Below are positions 6,037 to 59,112 of a DNA stretch of 64,000 nucleotides, one piece after another. The first letter of the stretch is position 1. Each line of letters begins with the position of its first letter. Position numbers and translations under genes: made by a program. The notes under the pieces are model-generated. The model had not been told where the DNA came from. It ran no database searches and saw nothing but the letters and a program-made list of their open reading frames with translations. Source of the stretch: Nitzschia sp. pyKryTriq1. Lineage: Eukaryota > Bacillariophyta > Bacillariophyceae > Bacillariales > Bacillariaceae. The stretch covers positions 2,687,751-2,751,750 of the forward strand of contig OY101118.1 of the NCBI GenBank assembly GCA_956465555.1. Direction: 5' to 3'.

Positions 6037-6871
6037 TATACACTACTTGTTGCTTGTTGTGCTGGTATTATTCGTACCATTACCGTACGATAGAAATGAT
6101 TTGTGGTCGGTTAGCACGAAACACAGACTCCTAGTCATCGACCCATCCACGCCAGAAAGAGGATGAGGGAAGTCGAAAGACGTGGCCAACAGGATGCAGA
6201 AATTTTGAAAATCGGACGATCATTCATTTTCGTCGTTGTTCGTTCCGTTCGCGGCGGCCTCTTTGTTGTGTGAGCCCCTTCGACCAATCAAAACACACTT
6301 GGTTCGAACACGTCACGGAAGCATGGAACGATAATCCATACTTGTACGTAGCACCGGTACCATGTACCAGGTACCAGGTACGGTACGGTACCGGGTACTG
6401 GTACCAGGTACTGGTACCAGGTACCGCGGTATGCATCTACCGCAACACGAGAAACAAAAGACAGTCGAATCGAATGAATCAACATACGTATCATCATCGC
6501 ATTGGCGCAAGCTAGCAAGTGCCAACAAACCCTCAACTCTCTCGGACACTGTAGACCGATTTTTCGGCCGTTGATCTCGCCCACGATCCTTCCTTCTGGA
6601 TCCTTTCTTGGAGAAAGTCTCCCCACTTCGGGTTGCTAGGTTGCGCCATTGAATGGGTTTGAAAGTTCCTTTTAAAGCTAATTAAACTAGAAATCCGAGG
6701 TTGCGATATCGGTCGTCGACTCGATGATCTTATGAGATCCATCGGTCGTCTCTCTTCGGTATCGGCTCAAATCTTGTGTTCGTTCGACTTCTTGTCTGTC
6801 CTTCGTTCGTTGGGGGTAGCCACGCCATCGCCGCGTACAAGTATGGAAATACTGGTACCTGTACACTACGG
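6037..6871. other. Spacer with GTACC island beside a retroelement
   Basis: No gene seen. A dense GTACC island occupies about 6350-6432. The spacer ends at the left target-site duplication (ACGG, 6868-6871) of the TRIM element, which inserted next to another small GTACC stretch (gtacctgtacactacgg). Confidence 0.55.
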
Positions 6872-7071
6872 TGCACTATGCATGCAGTCAGGAGTCACGT
6901 CTGGCCTTCAGCCGGGATGTGCTCTGAAAAAGGGGGTTGAGGTTCGGTCTCGAACCCACGGCCTCACACTCTGTGCGTTAGCCTTTAGCCATTGTGGCAT
7001 TTGGAGCTCTCTTATTCAGAGGAGTGGGGAATGTCTTAAAGACTGTCTTGTGCCGTGTCCTGTGTATTGCA
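6872..7071 (-). repeat. 200-bp LTR of TRIM copy 1 (3' LTR in minus orientation)
   Basis: Base for base the same as the repeat at 8080-8279. Both differ from the LTRs of the second element at two positions: ggggGttg against ggggAttg, and cccAcgg against cccGcgg. Identity within a copy with differences between copies is what reverse transcription of one template produces. Confidence 0.88.
6927..7007 (-). promoter_or_regulatory. tRNA-like pol III unit inside the LTR
   Basis: On the minus strand the LTR reads TGCCACAATGG at 6999-6989, a near match to a tRNA A box (TGGCNNAGTGG). After 32 nt comes GGTTCGAGACC at 6956-6946, a perfect B box (GGTTCGANNCC). A T5 run follows at 6931-6927, a pol III terminator. 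The spacing fits tRNA genes. The fold is degenerate: the T-stem does not pair perfectly and no anticodon can be named, so this is tRNA-derived rather than a functional tRNA gene. Same-strand agreement with the inferred element orientation supports a role in transcription. Confidence 0.65.
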
Positions 7072-7653
7072 CTCTCCCCCAAGACATTTCTCACTTAGAT
7101 GCCTTGTTTCAGTTGTTAGTTGTTTTTATTGCCAGGCGGGCGTGGTCTTTTGCAGGCGTGCGTGGTCAGAGGGCCGACGCTTCACGTCATAGTAACCATT
7201 ACACACTGCAGTACGAGCCGCGCGCGCTCTTGAATTGTCGGGCTTCGCCTCGAAGTGTGTTTTTTTTCCCGGCCATTCTTGGCGCTTCGGGTCGTGTTGA
7301 AGTTGTGTTTTTATTTGTTAAGGTGCGGTCGTACGCTACTTTATGTTGTTGATATGCCCGTATTCGGTGTGGGCGGGTGGGCGCTGCTCGCTCTTCCACT
7401 TATTGCTTGTTCTTGTGTGTATGTGCCCTTCACTGGGGGCGGTCGGTAGTGGTGGGGAAACTGCGCTCCTCCGAGTTATTATGTGCTGGTTTTTGCGCCT
7501 CAATCTCTGGGCGGGAAGGGTGGGATTTTTCTTTTTCTCCCCCGAGTTTGTAGTGCCCTTCTGCTACTGTGGGCGTGTGTTGCAATTATGCCGTGCGGGT
7601 GATCAGGCCGTCGGTATATTGCGATGATTTTTGTTTATGGTTGTTATTATTAG

Positions 7654-7790
7654 TAGGTTGGTTGGTCGAGAAGCACTGCTACCTCTTGAGGCTTCCGTAC
7701 GGAACTCCTCCCAATGCTTGTTATAGTAGGTTAGTTGGTCGAGAAGCACTGCTACCTCTTGAGGCTTCCATACGGAACTCCTCCCAATGT
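7654..7790. repeat. Tandem duplication inside the TRIM internal region
   Basis: Two adjacent units of about 70 bp (7654-7726 and 7727-7790) share ttggtcgagaagcactgc and the following gaggcttcc-acggaactcctcccaatg, with a few substitutions. The same duplication is present in the second element (about 50194-50330), so it predates their separation. Confidence 0.8.
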
Positions 7791-8079
7791 TTCGCTAGCG
7801 TGTTATTTTATGATTATTGTTTTTAGTGGTTGTTATTTTTACGGCGCTACGGCACACTTCAATGGGGCTTATCTTTTGGACCCGAATTGGGTTGTTTAAT
7901 GGTGGATTGTTGAGTGGCTCTACGGCGCACAGATAGGGCTTATCTAAGCTCTTGTTGTTCTTTTGTCTTCTTGTTATTATTGCCCTTGTCAGGGGCTTTT
8001 TGCTGTTCGGATTAGTCAATTGCGCGAACCTTCGCGTTGGGTTTGTTCGTACGTTGATTTTTGTGCTATGAATTCATAA

Positions 8080-8279
8080 TGCACTATGCATGCAGTCAGG
8101 AGTCACGTCTGGCCTTCAGCCGGGATGTGCTCTGAAAAAGGGGGTTGAGGTTCGGTCTCGAACCCACGGCCTCACACTCTGTGCGTTAGCCTTTAGCCAT
8201 TGTGGCATTTGGAGCTCTCTTATTCAGAGGAGTGGGGAATGTCTTAAAGACTGTCTTGTGCCGTGTCCTGTGTATTGCA
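8080..8279 (-). repeat. 200-bp LTR of TRIM copy 1 (5' LTR in minus orientation)
   Basis: Identical to 6872-7071. The tRNA-like unit occurs at the same offset: A box 8197-8207, B box 8154-8164, T5 at 8135-8139, all on the minus strand. In the inferred orientation this LTR would drive transcription of the element. Confidence 0.88.
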
Positions 8280-8283
8280 ACGG

Positions 8284-9062
8284 TACCTGGTACCGGTACA
8301 GTACTACTCTAGCTACGAGTACATTATTTGTCGCTGATACACGGCTTGTGGATACAGTAGTAGACTATGGGGAACGGCTAGTTCTGGCTGGGGGGACGGC
8401 CAGTAGAGTAGAGTTCCGGGAAGCAACCCAAATATCAATAATCTAGCTCCTGGTGGCAGATTGGGCAAAGTACGATAGTACTAGCTAGATAGCCCCCAAC
8501 GTGGGAATAGAAAATTTCGTGCTCGTCGCTCTCGACCAGCTCTACTCTCTCTTTACTACTAGAGAGTAGCTAGTAGACTAGACTATAGACTAACTACCGG
8601 TAGACATAGAGTGGGTCGTGGTGAGCCTGGATCCATGAGAGTCCCAGCAGTAGCCGGGTCTCGTGGGTGGTGCAGTAGAAGTTCCTCGACGAGTATCATG
8701 TAGCTCCTGCCTGATTTGAGAAGACGAGATTATACTAGAGAGAAGCTAGTAGACTAGACTATAGACTAACTACCGGTAGACATAGAGTGGGTCGTGAGCC
8801 TGGATCCATGAGAGTCCCAGTAGCCGGGTCTCGTGGCTGGTACAGTAGAAGTTCCTCTACGAGTATGTAGCTCCTGATTAGAGAAGAGATTATCATACTT
8901 TAGATATCGAGCGTGATGATATGACTACGTATTGGTGCTATTGTGCTCCATTATTTTCAATGAAAAACACGTCAGTGGTTTGCTCGTACGACGAGCTGAC
9001 CAGCAAGCGTCTCGATCCACCACTGCCACATGCGGCGACTACCAACTCTACTAGTACAACAA
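8284..9062. other. Spacer dominated by an imperfect tandem duplication
   Basis: No gene seen. It holds a short GTACC stretch next to the TRIM (8281-8300), the tandem duplication at 8561-8896, and many CTAGTAG-type words. It ends at the 3' end of the DUF305 gene. Confidence 0.55.
8561..8896. repeat. Imperfect tandem duplication, two units
   Basis: Unit 1 (8561-8736) and unit 2 (8737-8896) share long blocks, including agactagactatagactaa, ggtagacatagagtgggtcg and gagcctggatccatgagagt. Unit 2 has small deletions of repeated words (cgtggtgagc to cgtgagc, cagcagtag to cagtag), suggesting slippage after duplication. No coding frame is conserved between the units. Confidence 0.85.
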
Positions 9063-49412: not shown

Positions 49413-49612
49413 TGCACTATGCATGCAGTCAGGAGTCACGTCTGGCCTTCAGCCGGGATGTGCTCTGAAAAAGGGGATTGAGGTTCGGTCTCGAACCCGC
49501 GGCCTCACACTCTGTGCGTTAGCCTTTAGCCATTGTGGCATTTGGAGCTCTCTTATTCAGAGGAGTGGGGAATGTCTTAAAGACTGTCTTGTGCCGTGTC
49601 CTGTGTATTGCA
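49413..49612 (-). repeat. 200-bp LTR of TRIM copy 2 (3' LTR in minus orientation)
   Basis: Identical to 50621-50820. It carries the copy-2 diagnostic bases ggggAttg and cccGcgg. The tRNA-like pol III unit is at 49468-49548 on the minus strand with boxes unchanged; the second diagnostic base lies just outside the B box. Confidence 0.88.
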
Positions 49613-50620
49613 CTCTCCCCCAAGACATTTCTCACTTAGATGCCTTGTTTCAGTTGTTAGTTGTTTTTATTGCCAGGCGGGCGTGGTCTTTTGCAGGCGT
49701 GCGTGGTCAGAGGGCCGACGCTTCACGTCATAGTAACCATTACACACTGCAGTACGAGCCGCGCGCGCTCTTGAATTGTCGGGCTTCGCCTCGAAGTGTG
49801 TTTTTTTCCCGGCCATTCTTGGCGCTTCGGGTCGTGTTGAAGTTGTGTTTTTATTTGTTAAGGTGCGGTCGTACGCTACTTTATGTTGTTGATATGCCCG
49901 TATTCGGTGTGGGCGGGTGGGCGCTGCTCGCTCTTCCACTTATTGCTTGTTCTTGTGTGTATGTGCCCTTCACTGGGGGCGGTCGGTAGTGGTGGGGAAA
50001 CTGCGCTCCTCCGAGTTATTATGTGCTGGTTTTTGCGCCTCAATCTCTGGGCGGGAAGGGTGGGATTTTTCTTTTTCTCCCCCGAGTTTGTAGTGCCCTT
50101 CTGCTACTGTGGGCGTGTGTTGCAATTATGCCGTGCGGGTGATCAGGCCGTCGGTATATTGCGATGATTTTTGTTTATGGTTGTTATTATTAGTAGGTTG
50201 GTTGGTCGAGAAGCACTGCTACCTCTTGAGGCTTCCGTACGGAACTCCTCCCAATGCTTGTTATAGTAGGTTAGTTGGTCGAGAAGCACTGCTACCTCTT
50301 GAGGCTTCCATACGGAACTCCTCCCAATGTTTCGCTAGCGTGTTATTTTATGATTATTGTTTTTAGTGGTTGTTATTTTTACGGCGCTACGGCACACTTC
50401 AATGGGGCTTATCTTTTGGACCCGAATTGGGTTGTTTTAATGGTGGATTGTTGAGTGGCTCTACGGCGCACAGATAGGGCTTATCTAAGCTCTTGTTGTT
50501 CTTTTGTCTTCTTGTTATTATTGCCCTTGTCAGGGGCTTTTTGCTGTTCGGATTAGTCAATTGCGCGAACCTTCGCGTTGGGTTTGTTCGTACGTTGATT
50601 TTTGTGCTATGAATTCATAA

Positions 50621-50820
50621 TGCACTATGCATGCAGTCAGGAGTCACGTCTGGCCTTCAGCCGGGATGTGCTCTGAAAAAGGGGATTGAGGTTCGGTCTC
50701 GAACCCGCGGCCTCACACTCTGTGCGTTAGCCTTTAGCCATTGTGGCATTTGGAGCTCTCTTATTCAGAGGAGTGGGGAATGTCTTAAAGACTGTCTTGT
50801 GCCGTGTCCTGTGTATTGCA
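50621..50820 (-). repeat. 200-bp LTR of TRIM copy 2 (5' LTR in minus orientation)
   Basis: Identical to 49413-49612. The tRNA-like unit is at 50676-50756 on the minus strand, with A box, B box and T5 all intact. Confidence 0.88.
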
Positions 50821-51310: not shown

Positions 51311-53461
51311 ATGATGGAGATGGATCTTTCACTGAACTTTGTTGACGAGCCGCAAGAACCAGCAGCAGCAGTAGATAATAATCCTGCTCTAACCACCAAT
51401 GTTGCAGTGGCGGCGGTGGCACCCGAAGGAACCGGCGAGATTGCTGCTGCTGCTGCTGCTGCAACGGCAGTTCCGTTACCCGAATACCCAGCACTGCGGG
51501 TTGGCAACCATGGGCACAGCATGGAAGACATAAAGGTGCAGTGGCTTCGCTACAATCATGGCTGTGACCCAAGGAAAGACGCCATCGCCATGGTGTCTGA
51601 CGCGAAAAAGGGCATCTGGAAAAGCATTTGTGCCTGCGTCAAAGGTGTCAAAACTGTCAAGGACTGGAGCCAGAATGACATTTGCAAAGCTCACGTTTTT
51701 GTATCGAAATCGACCATCAAGTCGCTCGACTTGATCCATACGTGCACCGATGAACACACTGGACGAAAGCGCAACTACAATGCGAGCCAGCTGCACATGG
51801 CATCGCAAGAACTCTTGAAGACGATCCCCACGAGCAACAAACGAAGCAGACGCAGTGAAGCCGCGCAAGAGTACATGGAAGCCGCAGAGAAAGAAGGCTT
51901 TTCGGTGGGGAAAATGCAGGCCTATAAAGTTGTTATTCGACTTTCTCGTCAGCCTATTGAAGCGCAGATTGGTGAATTCTTCCTATTGTCTAGTTTGTTC
52001 AAGGCGTGGAAGCGGGCGGACCCAGATGGGAGCTACACGCTCGAAAAAGCTCCATGTTCGTGGAAACAACAACAGCCTCCCACGGAACAATTCCAGCGAT
52101 ACTATATTGCTCCGTCCACAAGCAAGCACGCGTGGAAAAATTCGCGGGTGCACTTTTTCATGAGTGATGCCAGCAATACTTCAAGTAGTTGGAGTTCCTT
52201 CCAAATGTCGCTCATGATGGCAGTGACTCTGGATGGAAATAACGAGGTCATAGTCTTGGCGCTGGCGCTATGCGATTCAGACAGTGAATTGAACTGGATC
52301 TGGTTCTTGCAAAATCTAATGCGCGATTTCAACAAAGTCAATGTATTTCTGTCGAGCTCGGAACATGTGACTGATGGCAACCACATTCCAAACCTTTTGG
52401 AGCTCATGAACGCAGCACCGAGTCGATGCATCAAAAGTCTGATAGTTTCCCTTGAAAAATCCTTGTCCATCGAATTAACCCCCAAGGAGAAAGAACTGAT
52501 CCGCCAGCTGGCCCACTCCACATCCGCTCAAGAGTATGATCGACAGATTCGTACCATCTCCCAGAACGACCCCGATGTAGCAGTGTATCTTGACAAGCGT
52601 AAGCAGCAGTTCGTGTCTCATTGGCTTTTGCAATCGTCTCAAGACCAACAACCGCAGTCGTTCGCTACAAACAAGCGACAACGATTTGGTGAGATTGGTA
52701 GCAAGGCCAGTGACCTGGTTCACTCACGGGTACAGGATATCATGGATCAACCGGTCGCATCCATGACTACATCGTTGCTGATGAAACTTTCGGAATTGAA
52801 TCTGCAACGAAAGCTTCGGGCTCAGCAAAGGTTGGAAAACGGGCATTTACTCTCCGCTCATGCCCAAGAAGTTTACACCACCATCTTGCAAGAATCGCAG
52901 ACCTGTCAAGTACAAGTCCTTGGTCAGGACGGAAATGTCTGGCGAGCGATTGTGTCGCAGCCAATGCTGCATCAGCAGCCTCAGGACGGGACCAACTCTA
53001 GTTTTGTGGTAACAGTCAACACGGGAACCTTTCAAGTGGAATGTACGTGCCGATACACCGAAGAAATGGGAATTCCTTGCACTCATGGCACCGCGCTGCT
53101 GCGGAATCAGAATTTGATATTAGGTGCCGATGCGCAATGGTTCCACCCTCGCTACCATGTAACGACATTGGTGCAAACGTACGACTGCGATCCACCAGAC
53201 TTCTCTGTCTTTGGAAAGGTCGCGGTGGACGAGTTGATCCCACCCGAGCACAATGCTACCCACAAACCAAAACGTCGAAAAACTAACAGCAGTACCCCCA
53301 CGACGGCAGGTCCGAGTAACCCGCACAAGTGTGCTGCCTGTGGAGAACTGGGCCATCATCCAAAGACGTGCCATCAACCGTCAACGAAATTCCGTTACAA
53401 TCAGTTTGCGGATAAAGCCATGGAATGGGCCAAGGACGCATTGTTGGACTTACAACTCTAG
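51311..53461 (+). CDS. Mutator-like (MULE/FAR1-type) transposase, possibly inactive or domesticated
   Basis: A 716-residue uninterrupted protein. Order: an Ala-rich N-terminus with an AAAAAAA run, a zinc-binding-like segment (WKSICACVKGVKTVKDWS with later HTCTDEH) as in MULE N-terminal domains, then the transposase core at about 275-345 (MMAVTLDGNNEVIVLALALC, then ELNWIWFLQNLM). At about 578 is a SWIM zinc finger, CTCRYTEEMGIPCTHG (CxC...CxH), and at about 672 a zinc knuckle, CAACGELGHHPKTC (CX2CX4HX4C). In active MULEs the core ends with a Ser-Asp motif after the FLQNL helix; here VFLSSSEHVTDG stands in its place, so the second catalytic Asp seems missing. The C-terminal zinc modules are intact. 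Either a dying transposase or a DNA-binding protein of transposon origin. Confidence 0.85.
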   Translation: MMEMDLSLNFVDEPQEPAAAVDNNPALTTNVAVAAVAPEGTGEIAAAAAAATAVPLPEYPALRVGNHGHSMEDIKVQWLRYNHGCDPRKDAIAMVSDAKKGIWKSICACVKGVKTVKDWSQNDICKAHVFVSKSTIKSLDLIHTCTDEHTGRKRNYNASQLHMASQELLKTIPTSNKRSRRSEAAQEYMEAAEKEGFSVGKMQAYKVVIRLSRQPIEAQIGEFFLLSSLFKAWKRADPDGSYTLEKAPCSWKQQQPPTEQFQRYYIAPSTSKHAWKNSRVHFFMSDASNTSSSWSSFQMSLMMAVTLDGNNEVIVLALALCDSDSELNWIWFLQNLMRDFNKVNVFLSSSEHVTDGNHIPNLLELMNAAPSRCIKSLIVSLEKSLSIELTPKEKELIRQLAHSTSAQEYDRQIRTISQNDPDVAVYLDKRKQQFVSHWLLQSSQDQQPQSFATNKRQRFGEIGSKASDLVHSRVQDIMDQPVASMTTSLLMKLSELNLQRKLRAQQRLENGHLLSAHAQEVYTTILQESQTCQVQVLGQDGNVWRAIVSQPMLHQQPQDGTNSSFVVTVNTGTFQVECTCRYTEEMGIPCTHGTALLRNQNLILGADAQWFHPRYHVTTLVQTYDCDPPDFSVFGKVAVDELIPPEHNATHKPKRRKTNSSTPTTAGPSNPHKCAACGELGHHPKTCHQPSTKFRYNQFADKAMEWAKDALLDLQL

Positions 53462-55786: not shown

Positions 55787-58700
55787 ATGGCGGCGCCCAC
55801 AAATAGTATCGAATCATATTGCACCTTCACATTGGCCTCCGATGTCACCGCAGGTGGCTTGCCCTCCGAACAGGACATTGCCAAAGACTTGGAATCGTCG
55901 GATAACAACGTACGTGTCGCGCCGTAGGATTCTCTGTAGAAAATGTAGTCATCCCAGTCGAGACGAAGCCAATGACCCAACCGAAATCATTGCCTAATGT
56001 TGATCGACTGGCTTTCTTGGTGTGATGGAACTCCCTCTCAACACTTTGCTTGCTTCCTTCCTTCCTTGACCATTGTAATGATCATATAGGTCAAGAAGCA
56101 TGCCTTGAAGGCCGCCATCATGGCGATGCTCGGTGGAGAGGCGATGCCTCGAATCTTAATGCAGGTGATCCGTTTTTGCATCAACTCGGACGACAAGCAA
56201 CTCAAGAAACTCTGCATGTTGTACTGGGAAGTGGTGCCCAAGTACCAGCCCCTGACCAGCGAAGAGCTTTTGGCTCAGGCGTCCGGTCAACCAGTCGCCC
56301 GCAAGCTCCTCCCAGAGATGATTTTGGTGTGCAACGCATTGATGAACGATTTGAATCACCCAAATGAATACGTTCGCGGCAGCATGTTGCGATTCCTCTG
56401 CAAAGTCAAGGACGAAGAGATCCTGGGACCCTTGATTCCTTCTATCAAAGCTTGTTTGACTCATAGACACTCCTATGTGCGCAAAAATGCGGCTCTGGCC
56501 GTCTTTCATGCGCATAAGTTGCATGGCGATCATTTGTTGCCCGATGGCCCTGAACTCATGGCGCAATTCATTGCTTCCGAAACAGACATGGCGGCTCGAC
56601 GCAATGCCTTCTTGATGCTCTTTAAGGAAGCCGAGCCGCTCGCCTTTGAGTTTCTGGGACAACACATGCAGGAGGGTATTTCCAAATTCGGTGATGGATT
56701 TAGTCTTCTCGTTTTGGAGCTTACCCGTTTGGTTTGCCGCAAGGATCCCTCACAGAAGTCGCGCTTTGTCCGCGTCCTTTTTTCTCTTTTGGGAAGCAAC
56801 TCCGCAGCTGTCAGCTACGAAGCCGCGTGGACTCTTGTGAGCTTGTCGAGTGCTCCCACAGCTGTCCGAGCGGCCGCTCTTACGTACACCAATCTTTTGA
56901 ATGGGCAGAATGACAACAACATCCAACTCATTGTTCTGGAACGCCTCGAAGGCTTGCAAAAGAATCATCCCAAGATTGTACAAGAGTTACTTATGGATAT
57001 CATGCGTGCTTTATCCAGTCCTAACCCCGATATTTGCCAAAAGGTGCTGGAAATTACCATGGACTGCGTTACGGCTCGCAACGTTCACTCGGTTGTCACC
57101 ACTCTTAAACGTGAGCTGCAAAAGGCACTTGCGGAAGACTCCGAAAAGAGCGTTGCAGTCCGCCATATGCTTGTGGAAGCCATTCAGGAATGCGCCAAGA
57201 AGTTCCCTCAGGTCGCAGAGTCGGTCGTGGGTCTGTTGATGGAACTTCTTACCACGTCGGACCGCACTTCCCTACAGGTCGCTATGTTTGTACGAGCGAT
57301 TGTGCAAGAACACCCTTCTCTCAGAGCTACCCTTGTTCCCAAACTTTTGGACTCCTTGTGCGATATTATTTCGCCCCCTGTCATGTGTGTCGCATTGTGG
57401 ATTTTGGGTGAATACACCACCCCCGAGGACTCCGCGGACACCTTTGATGAAATTGTGAAGGAGGTGGGCGCGACCCCTTTTGTTGTTGCCGAGGACACGA
57501 AGAAATCAGAATCAAGTGAAGGCGAAACGCCCAAGATTGTTACAAAAAATGTTGTCTTGGCCGATGGTACCTACGCGACACAAAGCTCGTATTCATCAGC
57601 CAAGCCCGTCGCGGCAACAGATAAGACTCCTAAGCTTCGAAAGATGATTGTACACCAAGGAGATATCTTCGTGGCGGAGACCTTGGCATCCAGTTTGACC
57701 AAGCTCCTTTTGTTGACACCCACGCCCGATAAGAAGCGGGTGGCCAAGACCGTATTGATCCTTTGTGCCATCACCAAGCTAGCCGAAAGCGGATCTACCC
57801 CTAGTGTGGCCCAACGATCCAGCCTTTCCGATTGCCAAGAACGTTGCTCCATGTGTTGCCGTATCCTTTTGGACCCAAAGACAAGAGAGTTGCTTCAACC
57901 TATTTTGTTGACCGATGGAAAGAAGCAACTTTCCGCGTACTTGAAGAAACTAGCCGAATCTCAACCCAAAAAGAAGAAGGCGGAAGATAATGTTCCCACC
58001 ACTCAGGCGGATGACATGATTCATTTCCGTCAGCTCAAGAGCATGACTGTCAGCGCAGGTGACGTCGTGGATTTGGATGATGGTGCCGATTTGGCCCGGG
58101 CCACTGGATACAACAAATCCAACTCCTTGTGGGACCAAGAATCTTCTCACTGCTATCCTTTGAGTGGTTTTGCGGATCCCGTCTACGCGGAAGCACTGGT
58201 CACTGTGCACGACTATGATATTGTATTGGAGATTTTGGTGATCAATCGTACGCCCAACACACTGGCTGACTTGTCGGTCGAGTTGTCGACCATGGGAGAT
58301 ATGAAGATCGTTGAGCGTCCTCAAGCTCATACGATTGGGCCCTTGGATCAGACTACAATCCGTGCGTCTATCAAGGTGTCGAGCACGGAAACTGGACACA
58401 TCTTTGGAACCATCGTGTACACCGACATGTCGACCCAAGAACAGAAGTTGATTCATTTGAATGACATTCACATGGATATTATGGACTACATTCGACCTGC
58501 CTCCTGCAGTGACGAGCTCTTCCGTGGAATGTGGGCTGAATTCGAATGGGAGAACAAGGTTGCGATTGCTACCAGCATCACCTCTCTTAACGAATTCTTG
58601 GAACACATCGTTACTTCTACCAAGATGAAGTGCTTGACTGACAAACCCATCAAGGGAGACGCCTCCACTTTCTTGGCTGCGAATCTGTATGCCCGAAGGT

Positions 58701-59112
58701 AAGATTTTTTATGTGTTGACTGATGATAGTTCCCGGTATCGTGTTGGATGCCTGGTATGATGACTGCCTTTGTGTCTGTTAATACCGGGAGAAATCATGC
58801 CCGAGGGAGAACGCCGTCAAGGCGTTTCTTTTCCTTTTCGATTCACTTTTACATTTATCAAGAGATGGCTTGGTGACTTTCTTTTGATTGAAGATAATTG
58901 ATACATTCTTTGTGACTCACGCCGCGTGCATTTTTGCCCTTTACAGTGTCTTTGGAGAGGATGCTCTGGTCAACGTGTCGGTTGAAAAGAAAGATGACAA
59001 CGACGGCAAGCTTGCAGGTTATATTCGCATCCGATCAAAAACTCAAGGCATTGCTTTGAGTTTGGGTGATCGTATCACTTCGGTTCAAAGGGGATTGCCC
59101 GAGAAGCAATAA
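55787..59112 (+). CDS. COPB1: Coatomer subunit beta
   Basis: Three exons (55787-55909, 56090-58698, 58947-59112) give 965 residues, close to the 953 of human beta-COP. The N-terminus is [20 protein letters not shown], followed by the adaptin-like HEAT solenoid: [40 protein letters not shown]. The C-terminal appendage is complete: [40 protein letters not shown], then [20 protein letters not shown] across the last junction and [10 protein letters not shown]-type [18 protein letters not shown] at the end. It is a core subunit of COPI, the coat for retrograde Golgi-to-ER and intra-Golgi vesicles. Splice phases are consistent and conserved sequence runs through both junctions. Confidence 0.97.

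Follow-up and report, generated by a model that had tools for sequence, protein, structure and literature searches.

The stretch considered here is a window of 64,000 nucleotides (nt) from the genome of the diatom Nitzschia sp. pyKryTriq1 (G000:C4:2687751-2751750), and the subject of this report is a long terminal repeat (LTR) retroelement of 1,408 bp located on its minus strand at window positions 6872-8279. Two direct repeats of 200 nt each (6872-7071 and 8080-8279), which are 100% identical, enclose its interior; TGCA stands at both ends of the element and ACGG flanks the outer sides. The original prediction, made from the letters of the window, had described identical 200-bp LTRs with TG...CA ends, a 4-bp duplication ACGG and an interior of 1,008 bp, and all of this is borne out. 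The features of the element, together with a second copy of it, are as follows.

6868..6871, no strand: target-site duplication ACGG, left copy (from flank reading)
6872..7071, minus strand: 3' LTR, identical to the 5' LTR (from repeat comparison)
6927..6931, minus strand: run of five T (T5), 3' LTR
6946..6956, minus strand: B box, 3' LTR
6981..6991, minus strand: A-box-like site, 3' LTR
7072..7080, minus strand: purine tract GGGGGAGAG, abutting the upstream edge of the 3' LTR
7072..8079, minus strand: internal region of 1,008 nt, its sense strand A-rich and T-poor, without TTTT
8067..8078, minus strand: perfect 12-nt palindrome TATGAATTCATA, one base past the 5' LTR, at the position expected of a primer-binding site
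8080..8279, minus strand: 5' LTR, 200 nt (element read on the minus strand; from repeat comparison)
8135..8139, minus strand: T5 run, 5' LTR, LTR positions 141-145, presumed terminator of RNA polymerase III (pol III)
8154..8164, minus strand: B box GGTTCGAGACC, 5' LTR, LTR positions 116-126
8189..8199, minus strand: A-box-like TGGCTAAAGGC, 5' LTR, LTR positions 81-91
8280..8283, no strand: target-site duplication ACGG, right copy (from flank reading)
7651..7792, minus strand: internal tandem pair, 69-nt units, 96% alike
49413..50820, minus strand: second complete copy, LTRs 49413-49612 and 50621-50820, target duplication GTCT

The purine tract GGGGGAGAG, identical in 13/13 aligned copies, makes a fair polypurine tract, and because it precedes the downstream LTR on the minus strand, the element is oriented on that strand. 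The unit of A and B boxes lies on the same strand, so that the prediction of pol III-like units in both LTRs, oriented in the same way as the element, holds. On this strand the interior has an A content of 0.369 and a T content of 0.148. Fifteen open reading frames (ORFs) of at least 45 aa overlap the element, and the four of them that were tested matched nothing in Pfam at E<=0.1, in agreement with the earlier statement that retroviral proteins are lacking.

The explanation preferred here, to which a probability of about 0.6 is assigned, is that the element is a non-autonomous LTR retrotransposon of the kind called terminal-repeat retrotransposon in miniature (TRIM), carrying a pol III promoter and working like Helenus and Cassandra. 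It is predicted to use pol III, and would probably be mobilised by Copia proteins and primed at the palindrome.

Copies of the element in the genome

The assembly searched comprises 40.65 Mb in 20 contigs, and the numbers of matches are lower bounds: at least 24 for a 1,400-bp query and at least 35 for the LTR. The latter are made up of the 24 LTRs of 12 complete copies, two LTRs of an interrupted copy, three full-length solo LTRs, five fragments and a 31-nt scrap. The complete copies (at least 12) measure 1,405-1,437 bp, and the further one is split by foreign sequence and has one truncated LTR. The original prediction would have been refuted by genome copies that lack paired LTRs or target duplications, and the search gave the opposite result. 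Besides paired LTRs, a perfect 4-bp target duplication is present at 11 of the 12 complete copies and a match of 3/4 bases at the remaining one (one site being counted twice via segmental duplication), and two of the three full-length solo LTRs are likewise perfectly flanked. The LTR pairs are identical in 10/12 complete copies, which justifies the word 'young' used beforehand; of the other two, one pair differs by 1 substitution and one by a 4-bp deletion. Within pairs this amounts to 1 substitution in 2,401 compared sites, and between copies to a mean of 2.26 substitutions (0-5) per LTR of ~200 nt in 66 comparisons. The family is a recently mobile LTR retrotransposon, and its paired LTRs and 4-bp duplications are the traces of LTR retrotransposition. 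They also set the element apart from a tRNA-derived short interspersed element (SINE), a single unit without LTRs moved by a long interspersed element.

Several side observations concern individual copies. The second copy in the window is 99.6% identical to the element and adjoins an ORF of 716 aa (51311-53461), which gave weak matches to a MULE transposase and a SWIM zinc finger, both under the Pfam cut-offs. At C14:1175354-1178452 (L013) two copies in opposite orientations stand 263 bp apart with the LTR end of a Copia element (family D, see below) between them, a possible hot spot of insertion. The 31-nt scrap, which belongs to the 5' end of the LTR (C11, L079 4873-4999), was considered as the end of a partner element and rejected, for it is filler between two copies of a 48-bp repeat, and it resembles filler DNA copied during break repair. 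One exact 25-nt pattern of the element had 0 matches in viral contigs. Elsewhere in the window, an imperfect tandem repeat of ~173 bp is located just downstream of the element (8557-8893), and residues 1-400 of the protein at 56105-58702 (named coatomer beta) show 89% identity to a protein of Nitzschia sp. Nitz4 and 86% to a protein of Nitzschia inconspicua, which agrees with a diatom host close to Nitzschia.

The tRNA-like unit in the LTRs

The B box GGTTCGAGACC fits the B-box consensus in 11/11 positions, and T5 starts 14 nt past it; both are exact in 34/34 LTR rows. The A-box-like TGGCTAAAGGC starts 35 nt upstream of the B box, the distance being 42-45 nt in those tRNAs of the genome that have no intron or long variable arm, and it is exact in 31/34 rows (one is changed, and two fragments stop short of it). 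When a profile built from 18 nuclear tRNAs of the genome was applied to the window, its four LTRs took ranks 1-4 (E 0.15, 0.15, 0.47 and 0.47; next 3.5), the match covering only the surroundings of the B box. The best pairwise relative of the LTR among 20 tRNAs was a tRNA-Arg at locus L032 (TCT anticodon by our own reading; score 32). The alignment is colinear throughout the stretch bounded by the A and B boxes and contains three gaps (one of 8 nt and two of 1 nt); its score was reached by 0/500 mononucleotide shuffles. Folding of the LTR gave a z of -1.25, 20/200 shuffles being equally stable, and in 21 loci containing copies and fragments with flanks of 0.5-1.5 kb no tRNA gene was detected by ARAGORN. 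It is plausible that the LTR unit is an eroded tRNA-type promoter, not a tRNA, and a tRNA origin of the LTR sequence may be regarded as moderately supported.

On the sense strand of every complete copy (12/12), four or more consecutive T occur only in the two T5 runs. In the copy at 6872-8279 these runs are separated by 1,203 nt free of TTTT, a property that only 16 of the 1,152 overlapping windows of the same length elsewhere, taken on both strands, have in common with it (mean 7.97); the sense strand of the Copia family A carries 19 TTTT in 4,542 nt. A TTTT-free body suits the passage of pol III, although low T content alone could explain it. Transcription by pol III would be expected to start around LTR position 65, some 12-20 nt ahead of the A box (at about 8215 of the window), and the main product would be an RNA of ~80 nt terminating at the first T5. 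Occasional read-through of this T5 would yield an RNA of ~1.29 kb that extends as far as the T5 run in the downstream LTR, and the R region that follows from the start site and the T5 ends would measure ~80 nt. RNA polymerase II (pol II) may be an alternative source of the RNA, the pol III unit then serving as a side promoter.

The rival that survives best assumes an ordinary non-autonomous LTR element (a TRIM or a small large retrotransposon derivative, LARD) which is transcribed by pol II, and in which the A and B motifs are a worn relic of a SINE or tRNA, or chance, and have no role. It is considered possible, at well under an even chance, and a number of results support it and weigh against a pol III unit. 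By position weights from 25 nuclear tRNAs of the genome the LTR unit has an A+B score of 15.7, under all of these tRNAs (22.2-34.7), and two unrelated sites of the window score 16.0 and 15.4, the first of them exceeding the LTR unit. The score of the alignment between LTR and tRNA is equalled by 10/1,212 background windows of 200 nt. No tRNA was detected by Rfam at E<=10 in the whole element or in the LTR alone, nor by ARAGORN within the 64-kb window, and a full tRNA gene inside the LTR was for this reason rejected. Conservation of the boxes gives no significant signal of selection (1/27 variable positions in the boxes vs 21/173 elsewhere, p=0.17). By our arithmetic, the T content of 0.148 predicts ~0.6 TTTT, so that finding none is roughly expected. 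Finally, a genomic RNA made by pol III sits uneasily with the T5 of the 5' LTR: this run would halt much of the polymerase, and full-length RNA therefore requires read-through or pol II. It can be said that the term 'tRNA-like' in the original prediction stands as far as the motifs are concerned (perfect B box, weaker A box and T5), but not as a tRNA recognisable by score or by search. What speaks against the pol II explanation is that the LTRs are the best tRNA-profile matches in the window, that the perfect B box is present in every LTR row (34/34) and is followed by T5 after 14 nt, and that the LTR contains no TATA[AT], AATAAA or ATTAAA, only AATAAG, though the Copia A LTR is likewise without the first three.

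The junction palindrome and the source of proteins

The 5' LTR of the element ends in GTGCA and is followed by TTATGAATTCATAGCAC, in which the perfect 12-nt palindrome begins at base 2 and is intact in 12/13 copies. At a random site of the window such a palindrome starts in the first two bases at a frequency of 0.0012. The search for a primer site compared the first 30 nt past the LTR (22 nt for Copia D) with an incomplete set of 51 tRNAs, each on its own strand, namely 50 of the 63 tRNA matches of the genome and the initiator tRNA-Met (L110). Within this set the longest complement in the element is 6 nt; it sits exactly at the junction and fits the initiator tRNA-Met, in the anticodon loop, as well as three other tRNAs. 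The Copia family B (L070, L073) served as a positive control. Its first 14 nt past the LTR, CGCTTCCTCTGCGC, are exactly complementary to the initiator tRNA-Met in an internal stretch on the side of the D arm, so that the primer of this family is probably a 5' tRNA fragment. No palindrome is present at the junction of Copia B. In the families A, C and D the complements to tRNA do not exceed 9, 8 and 8 nt, respectively, and none stands at the junction.

Perfect palindromes of 12 nt are located directly past the 5' LTR of Copia elements as well (loci L088, L071, L111 and L112), each of its own sequence: CGCTTCGAAGCG in Copia A, TACCGATCGGTA in Copia C, and TACTGTACAGTA in Copia D together with a small relative of Copia D. 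The junction palindrome is found in 3/4 Copia families examined, in addition to the element. The pattern was first noticed in the element and Copia A; B, C and D then served as tests: C and D were positive, and B, which was negative, has the tRNA site. For Copia C one copy was read and the family was then counted by pattern. The exact junction occurs at 6 places in the genome for Copia D and at 5 for Copia C. The LTR end of Copia D forms 9 same-strand pairs, of which 5 (C1, C4, C5, one on C10, and C17) carry the palindromic junction at their upstream end. The family of Copia locus L089, around which no LTR pair was found, is left out of the count. Same-strand pairs of the Copia D LTR end at a distance of 1.2-1.3 kb (C1:466703-468021, C9:2036050-2037363 and C14:392672-393879) suggest further small non-autonomous LTR elements.

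According to the mechanism proposed here, minus-strand synthesis would start at the palindrome and not on a tRNA, either by annealing of two RNAs or in a hairpin; in annealed RNAs a nicked partner would prime U5. The Copia proteins of this genome would reverse-transcribe and integrate the RNA of the element in trans. Some results detract from the Copia part of this proposal. The readable Copia target duplications are both of 6 bp (AGAGTA at L088, family A; AGCTCA at L073, family B), and the 4 bp of the element therefore speak against the families A and B as partner. Comparison of one copy (E1) with 28 reverse transcriptase loci gave no similarity at E<=1. Moreover, four of the nine Copia D pairs (C9, the other on C10, C14 and C15) have no match to the palindromic junction within 3 mismatches and are unreadable.

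Tentatively, the proteins could come from a Gypsy-type element instead, as suggested by the 4-bp duplication, which is also the length in animal Helenus and is there tied to Gypsy (PMC10886601), and by 7/12 integrase-core matches that are located apart from both the RVT_2 places and the Copia D pairs. Nevertheless, the RVT_1 matches number only 7, including one on the 50-kb contig C19, and no Gypsy element was identified among them; the element and Copia have the palindromic junction in common here; and duplication length is described as heterogeneous in diatom Copia (PMC2806351). Copia remains the preferred source of the proteins.

It is unlikely that the palindrome is not the primer site and that part of a tRNA primes through a short match, for instance the anticodon loop of tRNA-Met as in fungal Helenus. 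Sites of this kind are reported for fungal Helenus (PMC10886601), and Copia B of this genome has a complement to the interior of the initiator tRNA-Met. However, within the incomplete set of 51 tRNAs the match amounts to 6 nt in the element vs 14 nt in Copia B, and the palindromes recur across Copia families without a common sequence; the explanation is rated lower because the tRNA site of Copia B was found by the same comparison.

It is hardly credible that segmental duplication or repeats of the assembly, and not transposition, gave rise to the copies; this origin was rejected save for one pair (C1:4287218 and C3:3147903, with common flanks and like tRNA genes 11,956 and 11,955 bp away), since the remaining complete copies lie in differing flanks and have paired LTRs and their own 4-bp duplications (one of 3/4 bases). 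This pair shares its flanks and is therefore a single insertion that was duplicated later; the segments C1 ~4275262-4288626 and C3 ~3135948-3149307 suggest a duplication of at least 12 kb.

Beyond the palindrome-primed, Copia-mobilised element preferred above, a bolder proposal may be put forward, which we rather doubt as a whole. The element would be a retroelement in need of neither a tRNA primer nor pol II, its tRNA-like unit driving pol III through the T-run-free body of 1.2 kb to the far T5 and its reverse transcription beginning by self-pairing of the palindrome. This mode would be common to the Copia elements of the diatom, in which the palindrome is kept while its sequence varies by family, and in the sole family that lacks one a tRNA site takes its place. 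Of all the findings the junction palindromes most deserve to be pursued, and their relevance is wider than that of the pol III unit.

Comparison with known systems

TRIMs with tRNA-derived sequence in the LTR were described by Kojima in 2024 (PMC10886601) under the name Helenus, from fungi, animals and plants; they measure 311-1,263 bp and possess a primer-binding site and a polypurine tract. In the same paper a class TRIMp3 was proposed for Cassandra, Helenus and Ajax. The original prediction had named Cassandra as the only precedent for a pol III gene in the LTR of a TRIM and had called the tRNA-like unit a new, convergent solution; both claims have to be withdrawn in view of this work. It was the sole relevant paper found among the matches listed for TRIMp3 and for Helenus with TRIM and tRNA. 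Neither diatoms nor stramenopiles are named in its main text. Among the matches listed for diatom and TRIM, which include a transposable-element annotation of the haptophyte Tisochrysis, no paper on a diatom TRIM was recognised by title or start of abstract, and the passages of Maumus 2009 (PMC2806351) and of a 2021 re-examination of two diatom genomes (PMC8147415) discuss neither a tRNA primer site nor a TRIM.

The element resembles Helenus in being short, with no coding found, in the A-box-like and B-box motifs of its LTR, in the purine tract and in having no functional tRNA. Most Helenus LTRs have an A box with TRGCY and YGG and a B box with GGTTC; the element has TGGCT and GGTTC, and its A box reads AGG where Helenus has YGG. 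Helenus duplications are of 4 bp in animals and 5 bp in fungi and plants, so the 4 bp of the element is the animal length. Apart from its host, the element differs in size, with 1,408 bp in total and 1,008 bp in the interior against Helenus maxima of 1,263 and 621 bp, and in having a junction palindrome and, within the tRNA set compared, no tRNA primer site. The TRIM type had been proposed for it from the outset. The paired LTRs, the polypurine tract before the 3' LTR and the apparent lack of coding sequence agree with this, but its length exceeds the TRIM limit of <1,000 bp given in PMC10886601. Judged by its sequence, the element would appear to work like a TRIMp3; it is not filed as Helenus because a tRNA primer site was looked for and not found and because the tRNA origin is only moderately supported. 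In common with Cassandra, in which RNA runs from LTR to LTR (PMC10886601), it has a pol III promoter and a terminator in each LTR (both of them predicted here). Unlike Cassandra, which carries 5S sequence, it has tRNA-type boxes, and no Rfam match was found in the LTR at E<=10.

With respect to priming, the nearest parallel is offered by the GalEa Copia elements of fungi, which according to PMC5445492 have no tRNA primer site and carry a conserved palindromic hairpin site directly past the 5' LTR. This site is of 9 bp, palindromic together with the last base of the LTR, and has two sequences in 85% of families, whereas the palindromes described here are of 12 nt and differ per family. GalEa has a second complementary segment of 9 nt at 12-41 bp downstream; none was found in the element at up to 2 mismatches, and in Copia A such a segment with 2 mismatches lies 21-23 nt downstream. 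The same paper places diatom CoDi elements and GalEa in one Copia branch, and whether both begin reverse transcription without a tRNA, while a sister family retains a tRNA site, can therefore be tested in a cultivable alga. The biv-TRIM of bivalves (PMC6934838) is also a TRIM without an unambiguous tRNA primer site, and its interior has inverted repeats or palindromes; in contrast to what is predicted here, polymerase III is not mentioned in the main text of that paper. The microRNA (miRNA) cassettes of foamy virus LTRs (PMC7693620) likewise encode a pol III-directed RNA inside the LTR, as predicted for the element, but the foamy virus is a coding retrovirus and its pol III unit makes miRNA, not the element genome. 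If the pol III unit of the diatom element works, pol III-driven LTR parasites would be present in a further branch of eukaryotes, the stramenopiles, in support of a repeated origin. The diatom element widens a known kind, which was itself named in 2024 (PMC10886601).
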